Assembly (NCBI RefSeq): GCF_033472595.1
Contig: NZ_CP137642.1
Coordinates: 1,550,001 to 1,614,000 of the forward strand
Source of the DNA: Methanoculleus receptaculi
GTDB taxonomy: Archaea; Halobacteriota; Methanomicrobia; Methanomicrobiales; Methanoculleaceae
Reading direction: 5' to 3'
Length of the DNA: 64,000 nt
Shown here in pieces: positions 12,032 through 46,717 of the stretch (its first letter is position 1; each line of letters starts with the position of its first letter). The position numbers and the translations under genes are program-made. The notes under the pieces were generated by a model, which saw only the letters and a program-made list of their open reading frames with translations, did not search any database and was not told the DNA's origin.

Positions 12032-12826
12032 TCAGGCGGCCTTCCTGAAGATCTTCTGTGCACTGTTATATGGCACAAAAAGGTGTTCAACCTCTCTTCC
12101 CAGGTACTCGGTCTTACCCATGACGTAGTAGCCACCAGAAGCAAGCGCAGAGTAAAAAAGTTGCGTGAGATCGTCCTTCTGCTTCTCGGTAAAGTATATG
12201 GTGACGTTTCGGCAGGTCACGATGTCGAGGTACCTCGCGACGGGCTCCCCCGACATCAGATCGTGCTCACGAAACCGCACGAGGCTCTTGATATGAGGGA
12301 GGACTTCAAACGTACCATCGTCGCGACTGATGAAATGTTTGCGAATCCTCTTTTCATCCACATTCTCAAGCGTTTTTGCATCATAAACCCCCGCAATGGC
12401 TTTCTGCAGCACAACGGTATCGATATCGGTTGCATATATTGTTACGCTGATATCTTTACGGAGCGCGAGCAGTTCGTGAACCAGGATGGCGATCGAGTAG
12501 GGCTCCTCACCCGTGGCGCAGCCCGCGCACCAGATCCTGATCGAGTCCCTGCGGCGTGCAAGATCCGGCAGAATCTCCCGGCGCAGCACCTCGAAGACCT
12601 CAGGGTCGCGGAAGAATTTGGTGACGTTTATGGTAAGAGCGTTGCGGAGGAGTTCACGCTCCTGCGGGTTTGCCAGCAGGTAGCGATGGTAAGCCTCAAA
12701 ATCAGCGGCGTTTGTGAGCCTCATCCTGGAGAGGAGGCGCCGCTTTATATAATCCTCTTTGTAGTTCGAGCACTTTATACCGAGCAGCCGCTCGATGGTC
12801 CTCTGGAGCGATGCAAACTCATCCAT
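12032..12826 (-). CDS. cheR: Chemotaxis protein methyltransferase CheR
   Basis: 264 aa. Uses S-adenosylmethionine to methylate glutamates of chemoreceptors for adaptation. It shows the N-terminal helical domain (LGIKCSNYKEDYIKRRLLSRM), the SAM-binding motif IWCAGCATGEEPYSIAI, TIYATDID, and FREHDLMSG...DIVTCRNVTIYF typical of CheR. Length is normal, with no TPR or pentapeptide-binding extension recognised. It is the last gene of parA-mcp-cheW-cheR, 34 bp after cheW. The rest of the che genes are 27 kb away. Confidence 0.95.
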   Translation of the reverse strand: MDEFASLQRTIERLLGIKCSNYKEDYIKRRLLSRMRLTNAADFEAYHRYLLANPQERELLRNALTINVTKFFRDPEVFEVLRREILPDLARRRDSIRIWCAGCATGEEPYSIAILVHELLALRKDISVTIYATDIDTVVLQKAIAGVYDAKTLENVDEKRIRKHFISRDDGTFEVLPHIKSLVRFREHDLMSGEPVARYLDIVTCRNVTIYFTEKQKDDLTQLFYSALASGGYYVMGKTEYLGREVEHLFVPYNSAQKIFRKAA

Positions 12827-12860: not shown

Positions 12861-13343
12861 CTACTGAGCGCCCTGATAGTTTCCACCAAGATCGTTGATC
12901 ACTTTCTGGACATCAAGCCAGATTATGAGATTCTCCGTCTTTGCCCTTTCTGCATCCCCGATCTTGATGATCGCCTTGATGTAGGAGCTTATGGATGAGG
13001 TGATGCTGTCGTTGATTCGCTCGATCTGGTCCTCACGGATGGATATGACGCTGTGAACGTCATCGACGATTATGCCGATGTTCGACCCGCCCGCCACCTC
13101 AGGCATCAGCACGACAATCTTCCGGTTCTCCGATTCTCCGGAGTCAGGGAGTCCAAGAAGGTCGCGCAGGTCGATTATGTTTGTGATCTCGCCCCTGAGG
13201 TTGATGATGCCCGCAAGGTATGGGGGTGCACGTGGAAGGGGGGTGATTGGCATCATCTCCACGATCTCCCGCGCAATCTTTATATCAAGTGCGTAATGCT
13301 CCTTCCCGAGCTGGAACTCCACCACATCCACGGATGCTGCCAT
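12861..13343 (-). CDS. cheW: Chemotaxis coupling protein CheW
   Basis: 160 aa, one CheW (SH3-like) domain coupling receptors to CheA. Recognisable features are VVEFQLGKEHYALDIKIAREIVEMMPITPLPRAPPYLAGIINLRGEI-type N-terminal half (motifs YALDI, AGIINLRG), DLRDLLGLP and NIGIIVDDVHSVISI. It begins 10 bp after the receptor stop and is followed by cheR, so it is cotranscribed with the soluble receptor. Confidence 0.93.
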   Translation of the reverse strand: MAASVDVVEFQLGKEHYALDIKIAREIVEMMPITPLPRAPPYLAGIINLRGEITNIIDLRDLLGLPDSGESENRKIVVLMPEVAGGSNIGIIVDDVHSVISIREDQIERINDSITSSISSYIKAIIKIGDAERAKTENLIIWLDVQKVINDLGGNYQGAQ

Positions 13344-13353
13344 CGTCTACTCC

Positions 13354-15477
13354 TCAGTTCAACTTGAACCGCGTCATCGCTTTTCTGAGCTGTTCGGCCA
13401 TGCTTGCCAGTTCGTGGGAGGCGCTCCCGACCTCCTCCGTCGAGGCGCTGACTTCTTCGGCGAGCGCTGCCATATCCTCGGTGCGGTCCAGGCTCTCTTT
13501 GGTCATATGAGTGAACTCATCCATCTTCTGCATGACACTGTTTGTGGATGTGGCCTGGTCCTCGGTGGCCTTTGTGATCTCGCTGATGCCGTGAGCGACA
13601 ACCTCCACGCTGTCGACGATCCGGTTCAGGCTCCCGATAACCTTGTTGACGCTCTCGATGCCTGCCTGGATCTCCTTGTGGGATGCCTGCATCGACCCCG
13701 TCGTCCTCTCGGTGCTTGCCTGGATCGTCCGGATCAGGTCTTCGATATCCTGGCTTGCCCGCTTGGACTCCCCCGCAAGGTTCCTGATCTCCCCGGCAAC
13801 CACAGCAAACCCGCGGCCGTGCTCCCCTGCACGTGCGGCCTCGATTGCGGCGTTCAGCGCCAGCAGGTTGGTCTGGTTGGCGATGTCAGCGATCAACTTG
13901 ACGATGTTGTTGATCTCGCGCATCTGGTTGTTGAGGGTGTTGATCTCGTCGACAGTCTGCTTGGAGATCCCCTCGACCAGCAGCATCTTCTTTGCCGCAA
14001 CATCACCCAGAGAGGCGGCTTCGCTCCCCTCTCTGGCAGATTTTGTGGCCTGCTCCATGACCGTCTGCGATGTGCTTGCAATCTCCTCGATGGATGCCGA
14101 GAGGTCGTTGACATCCTTTCCTATCTCCTCGATCTTCTCGAGCTGGCGGCGTGCATCCTCTGAAGACTGCTGCGTCGAGACAGCGACCTGCTCCGTGGCG
14201 CGGATGATCTCATCGGTGCTCTTGCTGACCTCTTTAGTCGTCATGTCCACCTGTTCGACCGCCTTTGCCACGTCGGCAAGGACCGCCCGGATGGCCGTCA
14301 GCGAGGTGTTGTAATCCTTCTTGACCTTATGGAGCGGATCGTCGCTCTCCGCTTCCACAAACGTCGTCAGGTCGCCTTTTGACATGGCGGAAAGGGCGTT
14401 TCCGAGGGCTTCGGCACTCTCGGCGAGCTGCTCGCTCTCTTTCTTTGCCCTCTCCATCAGTTCTCTGATCTGCTCCTCTTTCTTGCGCTGCTCGGTGACG
14501 TCGTTGTAAACAATCAGGATCCGGTTCAGTTCGTTCTTCTCGTCAAACAGCGGGATCCCGTACTGCTCCAGGGTGTAGGTGCCTGCGGGAAACTCTACCG
14601 TCACTTCGCCGCGAACCCGCGCCTTTTCGGTGACCACCTTCTTGATCCCCTCTCCCGTCTGCTTCAGGACCCTGAAGTCGCGCAGGGTCATGGTGGTGAC
14701 ACGCGATCTATCAATCCCGGTCAGTTTGAGGTATGCATCGTTAACATTCTGGATCTTCATCGCCGTGTCAACGACAAGAATTGGCATCGGGTTCTGCTGG
14801 ATGATCGTATCGGACTGACGCTGCAACTCCGCAATGTCTGCCATCTGGGATTTGATCTCCTCCTCCCACTCCCGCTGCCTGGTGACATCATTATAGACTA
14901 TCAGTATGCTCTCGATCTCGCCCGCGTTGTCGAGCAGCGGGATGCCGTACTGTTCAAGAATACGGGTGCCTGCTGGCAGTTCGACGACAACCTCCGCCTC
15001 TACGCGTTTCTTCTCCTGGAGCACCTGCCTGAGTCCGGAACCCTTCTGCGACTTCACCTTGAAGTCGCGGAGGCTCCGGCCGACCGCCTGCTCCATCGGG
15101 ATCCCGCTCATCTCGGCATAGGCAGCGTTTGCCATCTTTATCCTGAACTGCGGGTCAACGACCAGCATGGGTATCGGGTTCTGCTGGATTATCGTATCAG
15201 AACCCTTGAGGAGCATATTTGCCTCATCCAGCCGTTTCTTAAGACGCTGTCTCTCTTCCCGCTTCTTCTCGATCAGCGCATTGATCGAGGCGGCCAGCGG
15301 CCTGTAGGCCTCAGGAATTGCGGCAGCGTCGATCTGCGTCGCGTCGTCGCCGGCAAGCACCGCCTGAATTGCAGCCTCGATTGCCTGTGGGACAATCACA
15401 GCCCCCTGCTCCTGTCCGGTCATGCCCGGCGCAACCGGGCCGGTAAATAGTGCTTTTCTTCCAGGTTTATCGATCAT
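13354..15477 (-). CDS. Cytosolic methyl-accepting chemotaxis protein with two PAS domains
   Basis: 707 aa with no membrane segment, so a soluble receptor. Domains: a unique N-terminal region (1-90), PAS 1 (about 94-200) and PAS 2 (about 223-330), which are near duplicates (both contain SDTIIQQNP and LEQYGIPL), a HAMP-like segment (about 350-405) and a long coiled-coil signalling domain with the conserved hairpin tip [20 protein letters not shown] at about 532-551. PAS domains could bind heme or another ligand; no diagnostic residue was assigned. It lies 19 bp after parA and before cheW-cheR. Soluble receptors next to ParA ATPases in bacteria form positioned cytoplasmic arrays. Confidence 0.95.
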
Positions 15478-15496
15478 CGGTCACACATCCTCAATC

Positions 15497-16354
15497 TCAT
15501 TTATTTCCAAGGCTCTCCAGCGCAGTTGCCACTGCCCGATAGTCTCTGCCTGGTTTGCTCTCCGGCGCATAGTGGGAGATCGGAAGCCCCTTCTGCTGCG
15601 CCTCATAGATTAGAGGCGAGTAATGAACTACAAACACCTGCCTGAACTTCTTTCTCACCTCAGACTCAAACGTCTTCAGACGCTCCTTCTCACGCTCCTC
15701 CTCGGCAAAGGATGCGGGTGAAAAGATCCGCTTAAGAAAGAGCGCCAGACCGCCCCCGGAGTCATCGGGTCCGCCCCATCGCGTCAGGATGGCAAAATCT
15801 GCATTTACGTCCTCCCCGATCATCTCCCGGATGTCGTTAAAGATCGTCGATAGCGCCTCCATACCGTTGAGGGCAAAGGTGCCGGCATCGAGGGTGACGA
15901 CGGTATGGTCGGCTGCGACAAGGCCGTTGATGACAAACTGACCCATGCTCGGGGGTGTGTCAATCAGGATGAAGTCATAGGTGTCCCGCACGGGGGTGAG
16001 CACCTCCCTGAGTATCCCCGCCCGGTCGTCTATGCCGTAGAGGTAGGGTTCGACCCCAACCAGGTCAAGGGTCGCGGGGGCGAGATAAATCCCCGATGTT
16101 GTGGGGACTATGATATCAGTGATCCTGACATCTGGAAAACCCTCAAAGACGCTCATGAAGACGTCATACATGCTCTGTTCAACTCTTTCCGGGTCGACGC
16201 CGAGCCCGCTGGTAGCGTTGGCCTGCGGATCGCAGTCCACCACCAGAACACGTTTTCCATCCTTCTGGAGGTAACCTGCAACGTTGAGGCAGGAGGTAGT
16301 CTTTCCTGTACCACCTTTATGGTGGGCGAACGCTATAACAGTAATATCCAGCAC
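15497..16354 (-). CDS. ParA/Soj-type ATPase linked to the chemoreceptor operon
   Basis: 285 aa. Deviant Walker A KGGTGKTT (residues 13-20), switch motif VVDCDPQANATSGLG, and a Walker B-like ILIDTPPSMGQFV. This is the ParA/MinD family that positions DNA or protein cargo. There is no ParB gene or parS-like cluster nearby; instead the next gene, 19 bp downstream, is a soluble chemoreceptor, then cheW and cheR. The start is GTG at 16354 because a GATTTAAGAGC box lies about 30 bp upstream. The likely job is placing the cytoplasmic receptor array, by analogy with bacterial ParC and PpfA (inference). Plasmid or chromosome partitioning is less likely in this context. Confidence 0.88.
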   Translation of the reverse strand: MLDITVIAFAHHKGGTGKTTSCLNVAGYLQKDGKRVLVVDCDPQANATSGLGVDPERVEQSMYDVFMSVFEGFPDVRITDIIVPTTSGIYLAPATLDLVGVEPYLYGIDDRAGILREVLTPVRDTYDFILIDTPPSMGQFVINGLVAADHTVVTLDAGTFALNGMEALSTIFNDIREMIGEDVNADFAILTRWGGPDDSGGGLALFLKRIFSPASFAEEEREKERLKTFESEVRKKFRQVFVVHYSPLIYEAQQKGLPISHYAPESKPGRDYRAVATALESLGNK

Positions 16355-16382: not shown

Positions 16383-16393
16383 TCTTAAATCTA
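16383..16393 (-). promoter_or_regulatory. Promoter of parA-mcp-cheW-cheR
   Basis: GATTTAAGAGC on the minus strand; predicted start of transcription about 25 bp downstream is close to the GTG at 16354. No other TATA-like box was seen before the later operon genes. Confidence 0.4.
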
Positions 16394-16399
16394 TTTTTC

Positions 16400-16700
16400 G
16401 TAATCACATACCTATTCCAAACACCGGGGTCTTTTTGAAATATTATTCCCTGTACCGGGAGGATGTCGAAACTTTTTTGCCATCCCTCTTCCCGGAGCGG
16501 GGATCGGATTGACTGAAATTCCATCCCGGGACGAATTCGAGGAGGCATCGCCAGAGACCGCCCCTCCATCCGAACGGTCGGGGGTGGGAGAAGGTGCGCG
16601 GCAATGCCCCTTTCCACCCGGGATCCATTTATGGAGAGGTTTATCAAACCTGTACAGCTATTGGATTGATGACCTCCCTCCCTCTTCACTTTTCGTATGA
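16400..16700 (+). repeat. Degenerate copy of the dispersed repeat
   Basis: The stretch between parA and the lipoprotein gene holds a decayed version of the family. The end motif is clear: ATGGAGAGGTTTATCAAACC at 16631-16650 followed by TATTGGATTGATGA, matching 10266-10304. GGTGCGCGGCAATGCC nearby matches copy 1. No supported gene was found between 16355 and 16803. Confidence 0.6.
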
Positions 16701-38772: not shown

Positions 38773-39789
38773 TCAGGCCACCGGAATTGTCGGGTATTGC
38801 GGGATCAGCGGGATGCAGCCAACGTGCCCTGGAACAACAAACCAGCACCGCCCAGAAGCGTCGATGAAGAGTTTCTTGACAAAGTTTTCCCGGATACCGT
38901 CCCGAGACGTAAGATGCAGCACGATGCCGGAAGAGTTCAGCCCGTATATACCTTTATCGGACGCAACAAGAAGCGTCCCGTCGCGTGTTGCCGCAACGTC
39001 GTTGATGGTGACCGGGAAGGTGCTCAGGTCCGTGGCGTTGAGAACAGGGGTGACACCCTCATCAGGAGAGTAATGGAGGATGGTTGTAGCGTTGAACAGG
39101 TAGACCCCGCCGAAGGGGTCGACACGCACCCCGGAGACTGTGAGCAGCGGATCGTCGCCGAAGAAGACCTGTTCAAACCGGCGATCCCGCGCATGGCCTT
39201 TCAGCACCCACACCCCATCGTTCTCGGAGTCGATGACAAGCGCATCGCTCTCGGCATCCACCACCATGCTCACAACGGTATAAAATCCTGCACCCGATGG
39301 CCCGCCAGGTTTATACCACGTCCAGTTCCCGTCATGCCAGCGGTGGAGACCGGCGCTCCCTGCGGCGACCCAGACCTCGTTATCCCACCGCCTGATGCAG
39401 TTTATGTTCAGGTTCTTGAGGTGATCCTGGTCCTGGATTGCATGATACCCCGTCCCGTTCCCGATCTGCAGCCCGCAGGAATACCCGAGCCAGAGGTGAC
39501 CATCTGGATCGAGGGCAAGAGCAATCACCATGTTATCGAGCGGTTCGAGAAAACCGTAGTCCGTCTGGCGTGGGTTCCTGGCGTTGACCGAATACCACCT
39601 CCCGTCTGCCGTGTAGATTGAGAGACCGCTGGAGGTCGCAAAGATGACATCCCCGTATCGCCCATTGATCACGTCCTTTACGTCTGCAGAGGCGATCGAG
39701 GAGACGTAGTCAGGAGACGCGATATATATACCAGAAGAGGAGGGAATGACCAGGAGAGATGCCAGAAGAAGAGGGGTGAGGAATTTCAT
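38773..39789 (-). CDS. Exported beta-propeller protein, last gene of the che operon
   Basis: 338 aa. Signal peptide (FLTPLLLASLLVIPSSSG) followed by repeated blades of the two-component-regulator propeller type: DVIFATSSGLSIYTADGRWYS, LALDPDGHLWLGYSCGLQIG, VWVAAGSAGLHRWHDGNW, LLVASDKGIYGLNSSG. Six or seven blades fit. It has no kinase part. Its ATG overlaps the cheD stop (ATGA), so it is translated with the chemotaxis proteins although it is exported. It could be a surface-side ligand-binding or array-associated component (inference). Confidence 0.78.
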   Translation of the reverse strand: MKFLTPLLLASLLVIPSSSGIYIASPDYVSSIASADVKDVINGRYGDVIFATSSGLSIYTADGRWYSVNARNPRQTDYGFLEPLDNMVIALALDPDGHLWLGYSCGLQIGNGTGYHAIQDQDHLKNLNINCIRRWDNEVWVAAGSAGLHRWHDGNWTWYKPGGPSGAGFYTVVSMVVDAESDALVIDSENDGVWVLKGHARDRRFEQVFFGDDPLLTVSGVRVDPFGGVYLFNATTILHYSPDEGVTPVLNATDLSTFPVTINDVAATRDGTLLVASDKGIYGLNSSGIVLHLTSRDGIRENFVKKLFIDASGRCWFVVPGHVGCIPLIPQYPTIPVA

Positions 39790-40277
39790 ACCCGGCTGCA
39801 TGTCCCATCCGCCCTCTTGATGATGAGGCAGCCTTTCCCCGCGGGCCAGAAGTAGACCGACCGACCGACCTTTCCCCCCGTCTCCTCGTACTCAATCCTT
39901 ATCCTCTGTTTCTGCAGGTTCTCCTTAACCGCAGCAGCGTTTCGCTCCCCGATATTCAGCGAGTTTGCCGAGAATACAAACATGCTTGCCCCACCGACGA
40001 CAAACGCAGAGATCGTGTTTCTGGTGCACCCCTGGATCTCCATCTCATCGAGAAGGACAGTGATGGCGGTGTCCGCAAACTTGCCGGGACGATCGGCGCT
40101 CCCCCGGCTTTCAGGAAGCATGATATGGGCCAGACCCGCAACCGAGCGCCGCCGGTCGTGGAGTATCAGCGCGATACAGGAACCAAGCCCGATCGTCGCC
40201 ATCGGATAGTTCCCGACACGGTGTTCACCGAGACCCAGGATGACTGCCGTCTCTTCCCCAAAAAAATTGTTCTCCAT
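39786..40277 (-). CDS. cheD: Chemoreceptor glutamine deamidase CheD
   Basis: 163 aa. Deamidates receptor glutamines and in archaea partners with CheC. Catalytic Cys in GLGSCIALILHD and His in GLAHIMLPES, the conserved Thr/Gly region ISAFVVGGASMF and NIGERNAAAV are present. Begins 18 bp after cheC, and overlaps the propeller gene. Confidence 0.94.
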   Translation of the reverse strand: MENNFFGEETAVILGLGEHRVGNYPMATIGLGSCIALILHDRRRSVAGLAHIMLPESRGSADRPGKFADTAITVLLDEMEIQGCTRNTISAFVVGGASMFVFSANSLNIGERNAAAVKENLQKQRIRIEYEETGGKVGRSVYFWPAGKGCLIIKRADGTCSRV

Positions 40278-40295
40278 GTATATTCCGCAGGCCGT

Positions 40296-40910
40296 CTACG
40301 AGAGTGGTTCCATCAGCCGTTCAAGCATCCGGAACAACTGCCCGGCAAGTTCTACGTTCGGGAGCATGTAGATGCTACCGTATACCGGGGGGGCCTCGCT
40401 CGTGAGCTCGGTGTTGAATATCAGGACGTCGTTCACATCGGTTGCCACCTGGGCAACGATGGACTCAAAAGCGGCATGCGCCATATCGATGGCCAGCGCA
40501 GGAGGCGAAGGCAGCATGACGACACCCAGCAGTTCGGCGGTTGCATCCAGGAACGCCGATATCATGATATTCCCGATCTCGATCGCTGCGCTCTGGTCCA
40601 TATCGTTGATCTCGCGATCGGTATCGGTCATACCGAGCATCTGGTTTGTCAGCTGGATGATCGTCTCCCGGGGCATGCTGACAACGATATACCCGCCATC
40701 CGCGATCTCACCCTGGATCTGGAAGACTACCATCGCAGATATCTCGTTGCTGATATACTTGTGAAGGTCTGCGATATCGATGGCCAGGACCTCCGGCACA
40801 GTCATCTCAACCGGGCTCATCAGCATCTGTGACAGACTCGTCGCCGCGTGCGCCGCGCCGATGTTCCCGAACTCCGTCAGCGCGTCCTTCCAAAAGGGAT
40901 CAAGTTCCAT
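40296..40910 (-). CDS. cheC: CheY-P phosphatase CheC
   Basis: 204 aa. Two phosphatase-type motifs of the CheC/CheX/FliY family: DALTEFGNIGAAHAATSL near the N-terminus and AIEIGNIMISAFLDATAELL in the middle, each with the E..N pair. CheC removes phosphate from CheY and binds CheD. It lies 11 bp after cheA. Confidence 0.94.
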   Translation of the reverse strand: MELDPFWKDALTEFGNIGAAHAATSLSQMLMSPVEMTVPEVLAIDIADLHKYISNEISAMVVFQIQGEIADGGYIVVSMPRETIIQLTNQMLGMTDTDREINDMDQSAAIEIGNIMISAFLDATAELLGVVMLPSPPALAIDMAHAAFESIVAQVATDVNDVLIFNTELTSEAPPVYGSIYMLPNVELAGQLFRMLERLMEPLS

Positions 40911-40921
40911 GAAAACCTCTC

Positions 40922-42886
40922 CTAAATCATTGTATTTACGTCAAGTACCGGCACAACATCACCGTCGCCCGGTATGGTAACACCGCTGATCCCGCGGCAG
41001 TTGCCCGCAATCCTCGAGAGCGGTTTCACCACAACCTCTTGCTGGCCATCAACATAATCGACGACGATACAGCACCTTTTGCCATCATTCTGCAGCACGA
41101 TCAGCGTATCGCCCTTCTCAGCCCGGCCGAACATATCCTCCAGACGGTACAGGGGGAGGGTCTGATCGCGCAGAAGGATTGCATCGGTGTTGCCGATCCG
41201 GTGGATCGCATCCGATCTTGCATGCGCCACCTCGACAACGTTGCTGACCGGGATGGCACACCGCCTTCCGTTGATGCGCACCATCATGACATCGACGATC
41301 GCCATCGTCGGCGGCAGAACCAGCTCGAATTTTGTGCCCCTGCCCGGCTCGCTCTCGACCTTGATCGTGCCCTTGAGCGACTCGATCGTCTTCTTGACCA
41401 CGTCAAGCCCGACCCCCCTCCCGCTGATGTCGTTGATGACATCGGATGTGCTGAACCCTGGTTCGAAGAGGAGAGCGATAAGTTCGTCTTTCGTCGCGTT
41501 CGCCGCTGCCTCTGGTGTGAGAAACCCTTTTTCAACGGCCTTCTTCCGGAGTTTCTCGTGATCTATGCCCGCACCATCATCCTCCACGTCTATGATGACG
41601 TTGTCCTTGTCCCTGCGGGCCGTCAGCCGCACCAGCCCCTTTGCGGGTTTGCCCGCGGCTTTACGGGCATCCGGCGTCTCGATGCCGTGGTTCACAGCGT
41701 TCCTTATGATGTGCAGCAGAGGGTCGGAGAGGCCGTCCATCATGCTCCTGTCAAGTTCGGTCTCGCCGCCCTCAACTATGAACTCAACCTCCTTCCCGTC
41801 ATGGTTCGCTACGTCCCGCACAACCCTGGGAAAACGGTTGAAGATGCGCTCAAGCGGCATCATCCTGATCCCCATCATAAGGTTCTGGAGGTCGGAGACC
41901 GAACGCCCGATCATGCCCAGCGCTTCATCAAACTCCTTGATACCGTGTTTCCTCGCGATCTGCTCGAGCCTGCCGCGGTTGATGACCAGATCCTCCACCA
42001 GGTTCATCATCCGGTCAAGCCGCTCGATATCGACACGGATGTTCTTGATCTCCCGGGCCTTATCGGGCCTCGCCGCCTTCTGCATCTGCGGTGCCGGCGC
42101 CGCACCGACCTCCGGGACGTCTACGGGCTCCCGCGCTTCCAGACTCTCTGCCGCCGAATACGATTCCAGCGGAGATAGTGCAAGTAGAGAGATCTCTGTC
42201 CCGGAGGCAATCGTCCGAAGCGCCTCCTCCCCGGCATCGCTCTCGACGACAACCTCAAACGTTCCATCGAACTTTCCATCCTCGATCCGGTCGCGTGGAG
42301 GGGTCGTCGAGCGGATCTTACCGATCTCCTCCAGGTTCTGCAGGAGAAGCATCGCCCTGACATCTTTCATGGTGCTTGTCGGGTCGACGGCGACCTTCAG
42401 GACGTAGACCGGACAGCCGCCCACCTCTATGGAGGGTTCACACGGGGGTTCTGGAGGAGCCGGAGGATTGGGAAGGGTGAAGGAGGCTTCGATCGGCGAC
42501 CCCTCCTCAGCAAACGCCATCAGTTCCTGCACCAGAGGTGCCGATTGCTCCTCTGGTGGGTTCTCCCCCGCCTCGATGGCATCAAGCATCTCCTCGATCG
42601 CATCGGTGCAGGTGAGCAGGAGGTCGGTGAGCGGCGGATTCACATCCAGCCCGCCATTGCGGATGAGCGAGAAGACGTCTTCCATCGAGTGGCAGAGGTG
42701 CTCCATAGCATCAAAGCCCATCGAGGCAGCCATCCCCTTGAGCGTGTGCGCCGACCGGAAGATCTCGTCGATGGCGGTCTGCTGATCCTCCCCGCTCTCA
42801 AGGGCAAGGAGGTTGTTCACGATGTTCTCATGATTCTCCCGCGACTCTTCGACAAACAACTTCCGGTATACCTCTTCGTCAAACAT
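40922..42886 (-). CDS. cheA: Chemotaxis histidine kinase CheA
   Basis: 654 aa. HPt domain with phosphorylated His 47 in FRSAHTLKGMAASMGF, a CheY/CheB-binding P2-like region (about 145-235), dimerisation helices (RLDRMMNLVEDLVINRGRL), HATPase motifs LLHIIRNAVNHGIETP, DDGAGID and GRGVGLDVVKKTIESL, and a C-terminal CheW-like domain (CAIPVSNVVEVAH; LYRLEDMF). All key residues are present. ATG 42886 with GAGGTG 4 nt upstream is chosen over the longer frame. Overlaps cheB by 8 bp. Confidence 0.96.
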   Translation of the reverse strand: MFDEEVYRKLFVEESRENHENIVNNLLALESGEDQQTAIDEIFRSAHTLKGMAASMGFDAMEHLCHSMEDVFSLIRNGGLDVNPPLTDLLLTCTDAIEEMLDAIEAGENPPEEQSAPLVQELMAFAEEGSPIEASFTLPNPPAPPEPPCEPSIEVGGCPVYVLKVAVDPTSTMKDVRAMLLLQNLEEIGKIRSTTPPRDRIEDGKFDGTFEVVVESDAGEEALRTIASGTEISLLALSPLESYSAAESLEAREPVDVPEVGAAPAPQMQKAARPDKAREIKNIRVDIERLDRMMNLVEDLVINRGRLEQIARKHGIKEFDEALGMIGRSVSDLQNLMMGIRMMPLERIFNRFPRVVRDVANHDGKEVEFIVEGGETELDRSMMDGLSDPLLHIIRNAVNHGIETPDARKAAGKPAKGLVRLTARRDKDNVIIDVEDDGAGIDHEKLRKKAVEKGFLTPEAAANATKDELIALLFEPGFSTSDVINDISGRGVGLDVVKKTIESLKGTIKVESEPGRGTKFELVLPPTMAIVDVMMVRINGRRCAIPVSNVVEVAHARSDAIHRIGNTDAILLRDQTLPLYRLEDMFGRAEKGDTLIVLQNDGKRCCIVVDYVDGQQEVVVKPLSRIAGNCRGISGVTIPGDGDVVPVLDVNTMI

Positions 42887-43913
42887 GATCCACCTCAACC
42901 TGGCCGACCGCTCGCGTGATCTCGCGTGCAATATTCTCCAGCGGAACCACCCGGTCGACAGAGCCTCTTGCCAGGGCGGCACGCGCCATCCCGTAGACAA
43001 GACAGTCCTCTTCTGCACAGACCATCGTGGTTCCACCAGCCTTCTTCACCGCAAGCGTACCTTCACCCCCGTCGCTTCCCATACCCGAGAGGATGACCGA
43101 GATCGTTCTCGGGCCAAAGACGTGCGCTGCGGAGGTGAAGGTCGTATCTACGGCGGGGCGGACGGCATGGATAGGAGGGGCGGTCGAATGAACGACCCGG
43201 CCGTGGGTTCTCCCGGTCTTCGACGCAAGCCGCGATATGACGGTGTGGACGCCGGCTTTTGAGACCAGGACCGCACCGGCCTGGAGGTTGTCGCCGTTTC
43301 GGGTCTCCCTCACCGACAGGGCCGAGATCCGGTTAAGGCGTTCAGCAAGAGATGCCGTGAACCCCTCAGGCATGTGCTGTGTTATGACAACGGCCGCAGG
43401 AAGGTCCGGCGGCAGCCCTGATAGCAGGACGTCAAGCATCGGCGGACCGCCTGCAGAGGACCCTATCACCACAACCGTCTCCGCATCCTTATGCGCGATC
43501 TCGGGATGCTTTTGCACTGTCGGCAGTCTGAGGAGGTTCCTGATCTTCTGGACTAGCTCTCTCTCGATTCCCCGAACGTTTGGGATATCCTTTGGCTTGA
43601 GCATGAAATCGTCCGCTCCGAGACGCAGCGCCTGATGGGTCATATCGGCGTTACGGGACGTCAACGTGCTCAGCACCAGTATCTTCGGTCTGCTGGCCTG
43701 CCGCTGGAGGGTTTCAAGCACCTCAAGCCCGCCCATCCGGGGCATCTCGATATCCAGGGTGACAACATCGGGGTTTAACTCCGCAATCTTCTCAAGGGCA
43801 TCGATGCCATTCACCGCTGTCCCGACAACCTCGATCTCCGGATCACTTTTGAGCAGGTCGCGCAGGATCGTCCTTATAAAGAGCGAGTCGTCGACGATCA
43901 GAACCCGTATCAT
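42879..43913 (-). CDS. cheB: Chemotaxis methylesterase CheB
   Basis: 344 aa. Receiver domain (LIVDDSLFIRTILRDLL; phosphoacceptor in VVTLDIEMPRMGG) plus esterase domain with Ser in VVIGSSAGGPPMLD, His in ITQHMPEGFTASL and Asp in SGMGSDGGEGTLA. Removes receptor methyl groups placed by CheR. Starts 2 bp after the cheY stop and overlaps cheA by 8 bp. Confidence 0.96.
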   Translation of the reverse strand: MIRVLIVDDSLFIRTILRDLLKSDPEIEVVGTAVNGIDALEKIAELNPDVVTLDIEMPRMGGLEVLETLQRQASRPKILVLSTLTSRNADMTHQALRLGADDFMLKPKDIPNVRGIERELVQKIRNLLRLPTVQKHPEIAHKDAETVVVIGSSAGGPPMLDVLLSGLPPDLPAAVVITQHMPEGFTASLAERLNRISALSVRETRNGDNLQAGAVLVSKAGVHTVISRLASKTGRTHGRVVHSTAPPIHAVRPAVDTTFTSAAHVFGPRTISVILSGMGSDGGEGTLAVKKAGGTTMVCAEEDCLVYGMARAALARGSVDRVVPLENIAREITRAVGQVEVDHV

Positions 43914-43915
43914 GG

Positions 43916-44278
43916 TCACGCACTTAGAACGTTCTTGACTTCTTCGAGGACTTTTGGAGCCTGGAACGGCTTGACTATATACCCTTTTGCACCGCTCTTG
44001 ACGGCAAGCTTGACCATCTGCTCCTGGCCGACTGCGGTGCACATTATGACCTTTGCAGACGGGTCTGCGGCCCGGATAGCCTTGAGCGCCTCTATCCCGT
44101 TCACCTTCGGCATCACAATATCCATTGTGACCAGGTCGGGTTTGAGATCCTGGTACTTTGCTACAGCCTCCGCTCCATCCGCCGCCTCACCAACGATGTC
44201 GTGCCCGCCGGAAAAGAGGATGTTCTTTAGTAGAGTCCTCATAAACATAGTATCATCGACGATCAGAATCCTTCCCAT
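43916..44278 (-). CDS. cheY: Response regulator CheY
   Basis: 120 aa, single receiver domain: ILIVDDTMFMRTLLKNIL, phosphoacceptor Asp in VTMDIVMPKVNG, Thr in MCTAVGQ and Lys in GAKGYIVKPF. In archaea CheY-P acts on the archaellum through CheF, which is encoded in the next cluster here. First gene of cheY-B-A-C-D-propeller. Confidence 0.95.
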   Translation of the reverse strand: MGRILIVDDTMFMRTLLKNILFSGGHDIVGEAADGAEAVAKYQDLKPDLVTMDIVMPKVNGIEALKAIRAADPSAKVIMCTAVGQEQMVKLAVKSGAKGYIVKPFQAPKVLEEVKNVLSA

Positions 44279-44600: not shown

Positions 44601-45698
44601 TCAGACCAGTGCACTCAGGTGCGTTGGATTCTTCAGTCCCGCGCGCAACCCGAACAAAAGGAGAATTTGATATGCAACGAAGTTGAGAGTCATATAGAGT
44701 TTCCGGCTCTCATGTCGGATCCCTTTGAGGTGAAAGGTTACAGAAGCCTTAATCCGGCCATGTATCCGTTCACACTCACCGCGGCTTTGTATGAGAGTTG
44801 GGAATTCCGGGTCGAGAAGATTCTTGTTTCGCAAATGCATCCCGACCTGTTCAACTCTTCCATGCTGGTATAGGAATCGCAACTGTTGAGTCAGGGGAGC
44901 ATGGATATCTCCCCCTGCTCTCCAGAGTTTGTTGACCCAATGCCGGATGCGTGGTTCCGTCCCTTCTTCCTGGATCACTGCCCCATCCCGGGTATCAATA
45001 CAGGGTCGAGCATTCAGATGATACCAGAGGTGTGCATGTGCCTCGTATGAGTCGTATCCGGCATCAAGCAGCACAAGACTGAGTTTGGGTTTCAGCGCCT
45101 CCACTCTCTCGATAAGTGGAAAAAGGTGGGTTAAATCCGCATCAGTCCCATTCGAGTAGACCATGGTGAGTGGGTATGGTCCGAGATGGAAGATATGCGC
45201 TTTATCCATCTTAACCTGGTAATGTGGGTGAAAAAGAGCATATCTGTCATACCGGGATGCTTCGATTGGAGTTGAATCGATGATCCCAACCCTCTCCTTC
45301 TGTGCCCAGAGAACAATTGCCTCACCGACAAGATGCATAAGCCGTTCCACACCTTCGACGCCGAGACGATATTTCACAAAACTGTGGAGTGTTGCAGGAT
45401 TGGGCAATAGATACCCTGCTTCAGTCTTCTCTGCACCAAGGTTGAAACAATCATCCTCTGTCAGGAGACGAATTGTCCGGACATAGGACTGTTTCCTGAA
45501 ACACTTGATGACAAGTAGTTTGATCATAAGAATAACCGGATAATGGAACCGAGAGACCTGTCTGGAGTAGTATTCTCGTTCAATAGTCTGTGCAATGGTG
45601 TCCAGATAGGGCGAACTGAGGAACTCCGTGAGAGAGAACCCTGGTTCAATCTCTTCAAATCCGTCTTCTTTTGCCAAAAACTCGGTGTTAAAGGCCAT
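44601..45698 (-). CDS. DDE transposase (IS1182/IS5-like)
   Basis: 365 aa from ATG 45698. Catalytic triad: first Asp in VGIIDSTPIEASRYDRYA, second in LVLLDAGYDSYEAHAH, Glu in SRGECERIHGRIKASVTFH. The N-terminal region (LSSPYLDTIAQTIE; YPVILMIKLLVIKCFRKQSYV) resembles the IS1182 and IS5 groups. No frameshift or stop, so the enzyme may be active. Longer frame to 45806 is rejected since a palindromic TATA box (45717-45728) predicts a start near 45698. Lower G+C than its neighbours suggests foreign origin. Confidence 0.88.
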   Translation of the reverse strand: MAFNTEFLAKEDGFEEIEPGFSLTEFLSSPYLDTIAQTIEREYYSRQVSRFHYPVILMIKLLVIKCFRKQSYVRTIRLLTEDDCFNLGAEKTEAGYLLPNPATLHSFVKYRLGVEGVERLMHLVGEAIVLWAQKERVGIIDSTPIEASRYDRYALFHPHYQVKMDKAHIFHLGPYPLTMVYSNGTDADLTHLFPLIERVEALKPKLSLVLLDAGYDSYEAHAHLWYHLNARPCIDTRDGAVIQEEGTEPRIRHWVNKLWRAGGDIHAPLTQQLRFLYQHGRVEQVGMHLRNKNLLDPEFPTLIQSRGECERIHGRIKASVTFHLKGIRHESRKLYMTLNFVAYQILLLFGLRAGLKNPTHLSALV

Positions 45699-45716
45699 GA
45701 GCCATTTTGGGGCCAG

Positions 45717-45728
45717 GTATATATACCT
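45717..45728 (-). promoter_or_regulatory. Palindromic TATA box of the transposase
   Basis: GGTATATATACC, about 25 bp before the ATG at 45698; symmetric, so it could also fire rightwards. Confidence 0.5.
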
Positions 45729-45846
45729 GCCGGAACAGCCCTTATCGAGGCGCAAAAAAATTAGCAGACCTGGTAAATCTCCGGTAAAAACCAGATAAAC
45801 TGGCAAGGTGCGCCAGAGGCGCGCATACTACCGGAAAAGAGAGAAG

Positions 45847-45889: not shown

Positions 45890-46699
45890 TCACTCCATTG
45901 GTGTTTTCAATGATTCCGAGATGTATCTGACACCTTTCGGGGTTAATTGAACCTCTTTCCTGACGTATAGCACCTCGGCCATCCCCGTGGATAAGAGTTT
46001 ATCATATATGGCATCGAGGTCCTTGTGCGAGAGTTTGAGCATATTCTCGATAGCGCTTGAGTCCATCCCGCTGTAGACCAGCATCGCCACCTGGCCGGTC
46101 AGGGGGTCCAGGTCCTCCTTAATCTCGGTGTCGCTCGTTGCCTCCTTGAGGAAGTTGTAGAGGACCTGAAGCGTCGTCAGCGGGCAGAGGACAAAACTTG
46201 TCACGACCTCGTTCTCAACCAGGTGGTCGATCTTGACAACGTTCAGGTCCTTTCCCTGGATCTCCCGCGAGGTGAGTTCGATACCGGCCACCTCATCGAG
46301 GGGTATGCAGACCTGCTTCTCCTGGCTGACAAACCAGATCCCGGTCTTCATGACGGCAATCGCTCCCTTCTCCCACGTGGCGTCCTGTATGAGGACGCCG
46401 CCGCGGATTGCAGGTGACATGAAGAATGCGTTCAACCGGTAGGCGCTGGCCTGCGTGATTATGAACTTCTTTAAGACGGTAAGAACCTTCTCGACCGACG
46501 CAATGCGGTAGACAGCCTCTCCATCACCCCCGACGGCGACAATAATCTGGTTCCTCTTCTCCTCCAGGTCGACAACCGACCTGTAGGGGATCTCCCGGTC
46601 AACAGGCGCCTCGATACGGAAACGGTCCTCTGCTATGCCAACCTTCGTCGAGACCCACCGGCCATCGTGCTCGACCTTTGCCGGGACCGTCTTCATCAT
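45890..46699 (-). CDS. cheF: Archaeal chemotaxis adaptor CheF (DUF439)
   Basis: 269 aa. CheF links CheY-P to the archaellum motor (ArlCDE). DUF439 features: a PH-like N-terminal half (RFRIEAPVDREIPYRSVVDLEEKRNQIIVAVG), a second similar half (AIAVMKTGIWFVSQEKQVCIPLDEVAGIEL) and a C-terminal wHTH (QVAMLVYSGMDSSAIENMLKLSHKDLDAIYDKLL). Start codons at 46699, 46696 and GTG 46711 are possible; the TATA box favours 46696-46699. It is downstream of the arl genes on the same strand. Confidence 0.87.
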   Translation of the reverse strand: MMKTVPAKVEHDGRWVSTKVGIAEDRFRIEAPVDREIPYRSVVDLEEKRNQIIVAVGGDGEAVYRIASVEKVLTVLKKFIITQASAYRLNAFFMSPAIRGGVLIQDATWEKGAIAVMKTGIWFVSQEKQVCIPLDEVAGIELTSREIQGKDLNVVKIDHLVENEVVTSFVLCPLTTLQVLYNFLKEATSDTEIKEDLDPLTGQVAMLVYSGMDSSAIENMLKLSHKDLDAIYDKLLSTGMAEVLYVRKEVQLTPKGVRYISESLKTPME

Positions 46700-46717
46700 C
46701 GCATCCGTCACCTACCC

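Follow-up and report, generated by a model that had tools for sequence, protein, structure and literature searches.

A four-gene operon of Methanoculleus receptaculi, in which a parA-type ATPase gene precedes genes for a soluble chemoreceptor, CheW and CheR, probably encodes an archaeal system of ParA/MinD type that positions the chemosensory array as its cargo and in which an array protein supplies a ParB-like peptide. A preliminary description of this DNA had proposed that the operon positions and partitions soluble receptor arrays. Given the conserved linkage and the missing ParB this is by far the best reading, although the positioning itself is what we infer, and the probability of about 0.84 that we attach to it is for the class of mechanism. 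ParA-type array positioning is established for a few bacteria. For archaea, the only proteins found in the open-access literature to affect array positioning are MinD homologues of Haloferax. An earlier description of the linkage between parA and the peptide was not found among the open-access papers searched.

The stretch of DNA analysed (the window, 64,000 bases) corresponds to positions 1550001-1614000 of the source genome, a single contig of 1,980,381 bases that is 99.76% complete. The four genes of the operon all have minus-strand orientation, and parA, receptor, cheW and cheR are separated in turn by 19, 10 and 34 bp. A single promoter for the four genes is plausible from this compact arrangement and from a TATA-like candidate sequence upstream (Table 1). 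The parA open reading frame opens with HHKGGTGKTTS near the N-terminus of its product. Pfam profiles identified AAA_31 in ParA (6.8e-49), MCPsignal (6.7e-45) and two PAS domains in the receptor, CheW in the third protein (2.1e-33) and CheR in the fourth (4.4e-55). Open reading frames and domains thus agree with the gene set first described, including the KGGTGKTT motif, the 19-bp gap and the 707-residue receptor. The receptor had also been described as lacking membrane segments, and a Kyte-Doolittle scan likewise found none in its 707 residues (highest 19-residue mean 1.46).

Table 1. Features of the parA operon and of the other che genes, in window coordinates.
Feature	Position	Strand	Remarks
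parA-type ATPase gene	15497..16354	minus	First gene of operon; 285 aa with GTG start; ORF and Pfam
Deviant Walker A, KGGTGKTT	16295..16318	minus	Signature Lys13 and catalytic Lys18; sequence
Insert, ParA residues ~195-236	15647..15772	minus	Absent from nine bacterial Soj rows; low confidence in AlphaFold model
Hydrophobic-basic helix ALFLKRIFSP, ParA residues 202-211	15722..15751	minus	Candidate membrane-binding helix; low-confidence AlphaFold helix
Loop HYSPLIY, ParA residues 244-250	15605..15625	minus	Counterpart of Soj DNA-binding loop, by alignment
TATA-like CGAAAAATAGATTTAAG	16384..16400	minus	Candidate operon promoter, upstream of parA; read from sequence
Soluble chemoreceptor gene	13354..15477	minus	707 aa; tag, HAMP-like helices, two PAS, MCP signalling domain
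Predicted disordered tail, receptor residues 1-25	15403..15477	minus	AlphaFold pLDDT <50
KPGRKALF tag, receptor residues 4-11	15445..15468	minus	Proposed ParA-binding, ParA-stimulating peptide
HAMP-like helical segment, receptor residues 31-99	15181..15387	minus	AlphaFold; no Pfam HAMP match
MCP signalling domain	13504..13965	minus	Sole one in the genome
cheW	12861..13343	minus	ORF and Pfam
cheR	12032..12826	minus	ORF and Pfam
cheD, cheC, cheA, cheB, cheY	39786..44278	minus	Remaining che system, same window
cheF	45890..46711	minus	Archaeal CheY-archaellum adaptor; PF04283, 51.3 bits (cut-off 25)

Genome-wide, the 707-residue receptor is the single MCPsignal protein (n=1), and cheW is present once, apart from the CheW domain within CheA. 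Since no second receptor exists, mis-inheritance would have a simple readout, namely a daughter cell without an array. The cheY, cheB, cheA, cheC, cheD and cheF genes and the archaellum genes lie about 28 kb from the parA operon, within the window. A DDE transposase gene (window positions 44601-45806) is situated between cheY and cheF and breaks up the che-archaellum cluster. No ParB_N domain scored above the cut-off of 26.3 bits in the genome or beside parA, in keeping with the absence of parB claimed earlier. The sole match (17.7 bits) lies in a CBS-domain protein (L183; G000:C1:50223-50402), which, judged by its domain make-up, is not a partition ParB. The preliminary description had named a ParB/parS partner elsewhere as an observation that would explain this ParA otherwise; no ParB partner is present in the genome.

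The linkage of parA to chemosensory genes is conserved well beyond this species, the ParA of which is 93% identical to that of a Methanoculleus metagenome-assembled genome. At E <= 1e-30, 79 of the 150 Methanomicrobiales genomes sampled, from 19 of 35 genera, contain the ParA clade, and a phylum-wide genome sample placed it in two more families of the same phylum. In family f10, nine genomes carry parA followed by a protein of the tagged type described below, which can be identified as a receptor if enough of the contig is available; in family f32, one genome carries parA inside a che operon. The search for parA-receptor synteny in archaeal genomes that had been proposed as a check has found it kept in genomes across Methanomicrobiales and in two families besides, and an unconserved linkage, which would have spoken against the positioning reading, is not what relatives show. 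Chemoreceptors occur in 112 of the 150 genomes, against 79 with this ParA; array function in Methanomicrobiales therefore does not require it.

The immediate downstream neighbour of parA is mostly a receptor, often followed in turn by cheW and cheR. At some loci (L133, L134, L138, L168, L172, L176 and L181) parA is followed instead by a protein of 537-795 residues with a CheW domain at its C-terminal end (Pfam on two of them). Methanoregula-type loci show the order parA, receptor, cheW, second receptor, cheR; in these (L081, L082, L139, L142, L152, L154 and others) an untagged receptor stands between parA and the tagged one, and translational coupling is likely because its start lies a few bases inside the end of parA. 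Two parA units in one genome, each followed by a tagged protein, were also observed (L146, L147, L173 (G135, G079), G148 and G377).

Alignment of the proteins encoded downstream of parA revealed a short motif, (K/R)PGRKALF, within their first residues. A protein bearing this tag is encoded in the parA operon at 88 of the 89 loci examined. An automatic scan with the pattern G[RK][KRMQ][AVTGS][LF][FLI] detected it at 87 (76 of the 78 Methanomicrobiales loci and all 11 loci outside that order). One locus missed by the scan (L141) carries the tag on a 907-residue CheW-domain protein farther downstream in the operon (L250), and at the other (L165; other record L086), the sole exception among the 89, the contig ends. 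Across 85 distinct tag sequences, GRKALF never varies in Gly, Arg and Leu, while Phe is kept in 84, Ala in 81 and Lys in 76. As the scan demanded a pattern, part of this conservation is built in by selection, yet the residues found vary far less than that pattern would permit. The linker after the tag is variable across divergent loci. Tag carriers are either receptors or long CheW-domain proteins, and since these are two different kinds of array protein, the peptide behaves as a transferable tag. The Methanoregula-type loci (n=11) were considered as a tag-less group and rejected as such, the tag being mostly on the second receptor of the same operon. One tagged receptor (L088:5574-7763) contains a 19-residue stretch with a mean hydropathy of 1.88, a possible membrane segment not seen in the other tagged receptors scanned.

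Away from parA, the tag was not encountered in the receptors checked. Of 22 receptors unlinked to parA, taken from ParA-containing and ParA-free genomes alike, none carries it, and operons of other families that run receptor-cheW-cheR but have no parA (L266, L267) lack it too. Exact GRKALF matches in DNA outside parA operons occurred at about the rate of a reversed-pattern control, and those fetched lay in no receptor. A search of PDB sequences with the tag alone gave no match. One natural experiment, the loss of parA in a relative, is conspicuous. At L251:2788-3460 (genome G103), parA has decayed to fragments in two frames and its Walker A motif is destroyed (HRGGFPERTS). The receptor of this locus is otherwise orthologous and is still followed by cheW and cheR; from residue 11 on it shares 69% identity with the tagged receptor found in a relative (L052), and the missing part is precisely the tag. 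By its sequence, L251 is a natural knockout in which parA and tag were lost together.

In the AlphaFold model of the window receptor, a disordered tail (residues 1-25) is followed by HAMP-like helices (31-41 and 56-99) and then by a PAS domain. ATPases of the ParA/MinD family bind their partners via basic, disordered N-termini (PMC10241942, PMC12204374), and a peptide of this kind, as in partners of these A/D ATPases, is present here (K4, R7 and K8, within residues 1-25 of pLDDT <50). The preliminary description had placed the ParA contact in the first 90 residues of the receptor. The N-terminus is retained as the likely site, and the proposed contact has been narrowed to about ten residues because conservation across divergent loci drops after the tag; segments similar to the HAMP-like residues 31-99 also occur in untagged receptors. 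Residues ~4-11 (KPGRKALF) are thus the likely ParA contact.

The ParA protein itself belongs to a clade of its own. In a tree built by a quick method, with some long branches, from che-linked ParAs, bacterial and archaeal Soj proteins and the MinD-like paralogues of the same genome, all 43 of 43 che-linked ParAs fall on one side of a single branch (SH-aLRT 99), and the window ParA lies outside the Soj clade. Lys13, Lys18 and Asp42 (signature, catalytic and switch residues) are invariant in 30 aligned ParAs. The AlphaFold model (pLDDT 86.9) has a Soj-like fold, its best structural matches in the PDB being Soj/ParA proteins (TM-score up to 0.89, by target).

A comparison with the ParB peptide of M. 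xanthus points to a matching pocket. That peptide uses Leu11, Arg13, Leu15, Leu18 and Ile19 on ParA, with Arg13 facing ParA residues Tyr81, Glu82, Asp110 and Glu117 (PMC12462528). Judged from the alignment, the equivalents of these four residues in the window ParA are Tyr63, Asp64, Asp97 and Tyr104. The Tyr63 position is invariant in both che-linked ParAs and Soj, whereas the Tyr104 position holds Glu in 9 of 9 Soj proteins and Tyr in 19 of 21 che-linked ParAs; such a clade-wide change would be expected if the peptide partner differs. The ParB proteins that adjoin bacterial soj genes start with LG(R/K)G(L/I). The archaeal tag has in common with this motif a Gly-Arg and a closing Ala-Leu-Phe; it is two residues shorter and lacks one hydrophobic contact, so its docking geometry must differ from that of ParB. 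Rather than a copy of the ParB peptide, the tag seems to be an analogue that has a matching pocket of its own.

In the mechanism proposed here, ATP-bound ParA dimers would bind an intracellular surface, either nucleoid or membrane. The array would display many copies of the basic N-terminal KPGRKALF peptide, which is carried by the receptor in this species and, in some relatives, by a CheW-domain protein. Docked at the ParA dimer, the peptide would tether the array and stimulate ATP hydrolysis. ParA would be let go behind the array, which would thereby be moved, centred or shared between daughter cells. An array component would thus perform the job that ParB performs for the chromosome, without parB or parS.

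A close known counterpart is found in Rhodobacter sphaeroides, where the soluble receptor TlpT is bound at its N-terminus by PpfA (PMC3964821, PMC5706961). There too, an orphan ParA gene lies beside a soluble-receptor gene, and the N-terminus of the receptor contacts ParA in place of ParB; in the window operon, the linkage and the N-terminal tag are present and the contact is predicted. PpfA-TlpT, however, is bacterial and serves one of two arrays in the cell, with PpfA on chromosomal DNA (PMC3964821, PMC5706961), whereas the window operon encodes the sole receptor of its cell, a ParA of a separate archaeal clade without the basic residues of the Soj DNA loop, and a near-invariant tag. In the ParC-ParP system of Vibrio and other gammaproteobacteria, a ParA-like ATPase is encoded in a che operon and is reached by the N-terminus of a CheW-like partner (PMC5706961). 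Relatives with the tag on a CheW-domain protein (L133, L134 and L176) resemble this system in form. ParP, in contrast, has a distinct N-terminal domain and a long proline-rich linker, and ParC works via the pole (PMC5706961), while in the window it is the receptor that carries the tag. With ParABS (Soj-Spo0J), the archaeal system has in common a Soj-like fold, the ATPase motifs and a basic Gly-Arg/Lys...Leu-Phe/Ile peptide at the N-terminus of the partner; it differs in having neither ParB nor parS, in the peptide (PGRKALF against LGRGLxALI/F) and in the loss of the basic DNA-loop positions. MinD4 and MinD2 of Haloferax volcanii, members of the same superfamily, affect the placement of chemosensory arrays and archaella, but are MinD-type and are not presented in that paper as belonging to a tagged receptor operon (PMC11588486). 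By analogy, the archaeal system would resemble PpfA-TlpT in its working and, in relatives with a tagged CheW protein, ParC-ParP, a likeness drawn from anatomy. It would amount to a ParA family that is archaeal and widespread and whose partner peptide is short, near-invariant and apparently transferable; the residues that turn a protein into a partner of ParA could be tested directly on it.

Among other explanations, the one that deserves most attention, though unlikely, retains the same contact between tag and ParA and has ParA mainly governing array assembly, size or signalling as a nucleotide-dependent cofactor. Vibrio ParP also promotes array formation (PMC5706961), loss of ParC in H. neapolitanus alters assembly as well as position (PMC10241942), and parA heads the receptor operon in the window. 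These same precedents, however, show assembly and positioning going together, and the basic disordered tail and invariant ATPase motifs are the anatomy of a positioning system. It is considerably less probable that the tag has another role (a membrane or pole anchor, a site for another Che protein or a stability signal) and that ParA acts on the array by another contact. The complex of tag and ParA is a predicted one, and the PDB search offers the tag no counterpart; yet every tag found on a chemosensory protein lies in a parA operon, nearly all parA loci are tagged, and the L251 receptor has kept cheW, cheR and 69% identity while losing the tag with parA.

The least credible explanation makes this ParA a partition ATPase, for chromosome or plasmid, that neighbours the receptor gene by accident. 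The solved structures nearest to this protein are indeed chromosome-partition ATPases of the Soj/ParA type. We nevertheless consider this candidate all but ruled out by the conserved linkage in the order and in other families, the absence of a ParB above cut-off, the separation of its clade from Soj and the loss of both basic DNA-loop positions; the joint loss of tag and parA in L251 also stands against it.

The surface on which a positioning ParA would act may differ from that of the bacterial precedent. Two positions of the Soj DNA-binding loop, in the region of which M. xanthus R238 and H. pylori K227 fall by our alignment, are Arg or Lys in 9 of 9 bacterial Soj proteins. In che-linked ParAs, the first is Tyr or Phe in 21 of 21, and the second is non-basic in 19 of 21 and basic in two. 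The window ParA also contains an insert (46 residues between anchors, against 23-25 in Soj) with a putative amphipathic helix. The nucleoid track of PpfA is thus not simply transferable to this protein, whose sequence speaks against DNA association of the Soj kind. A MinD-type C-terminal amphipathic membrane-targeting helix is absent from the window ParA by alignment and AlphaFold model; a similar motif is internal, in the insert, where LALFLKRIFSP resembles the C-terminus of E. coli MinD (GFLKRLFGG). Statistics on amphipathic helices are weak in individual proteins (median shuffle p 0.18). Combining them gives p = 5e-8, which is not proof, since the rows are related and the rule by which the test picked segments missed the membrane helix of its own MinD control. 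The insert helix suggests membrane binding as a lead only; ParA may instead hold to the nucleoid by basic residues elsewhere in its sequence, or act on a polar protein. Tentatively, and with the odds against it, a ParA/MinD hybrid may be envisaged: a Soj-fold ATPase without DNA binding, holding to the inner face of the membrane by an internal amphipathic helix, and moving or distributing soluble arrays through a peptide tag that has been moved between receptors and CheW proteins. With the archaeal ParA, it could be tested directly whether a protein of this type is able to exchange the nucleoid for the membrane. The insert is typical of the Methanomicrobiales ParAs, and those of family f10 have a shorter segment in its place.
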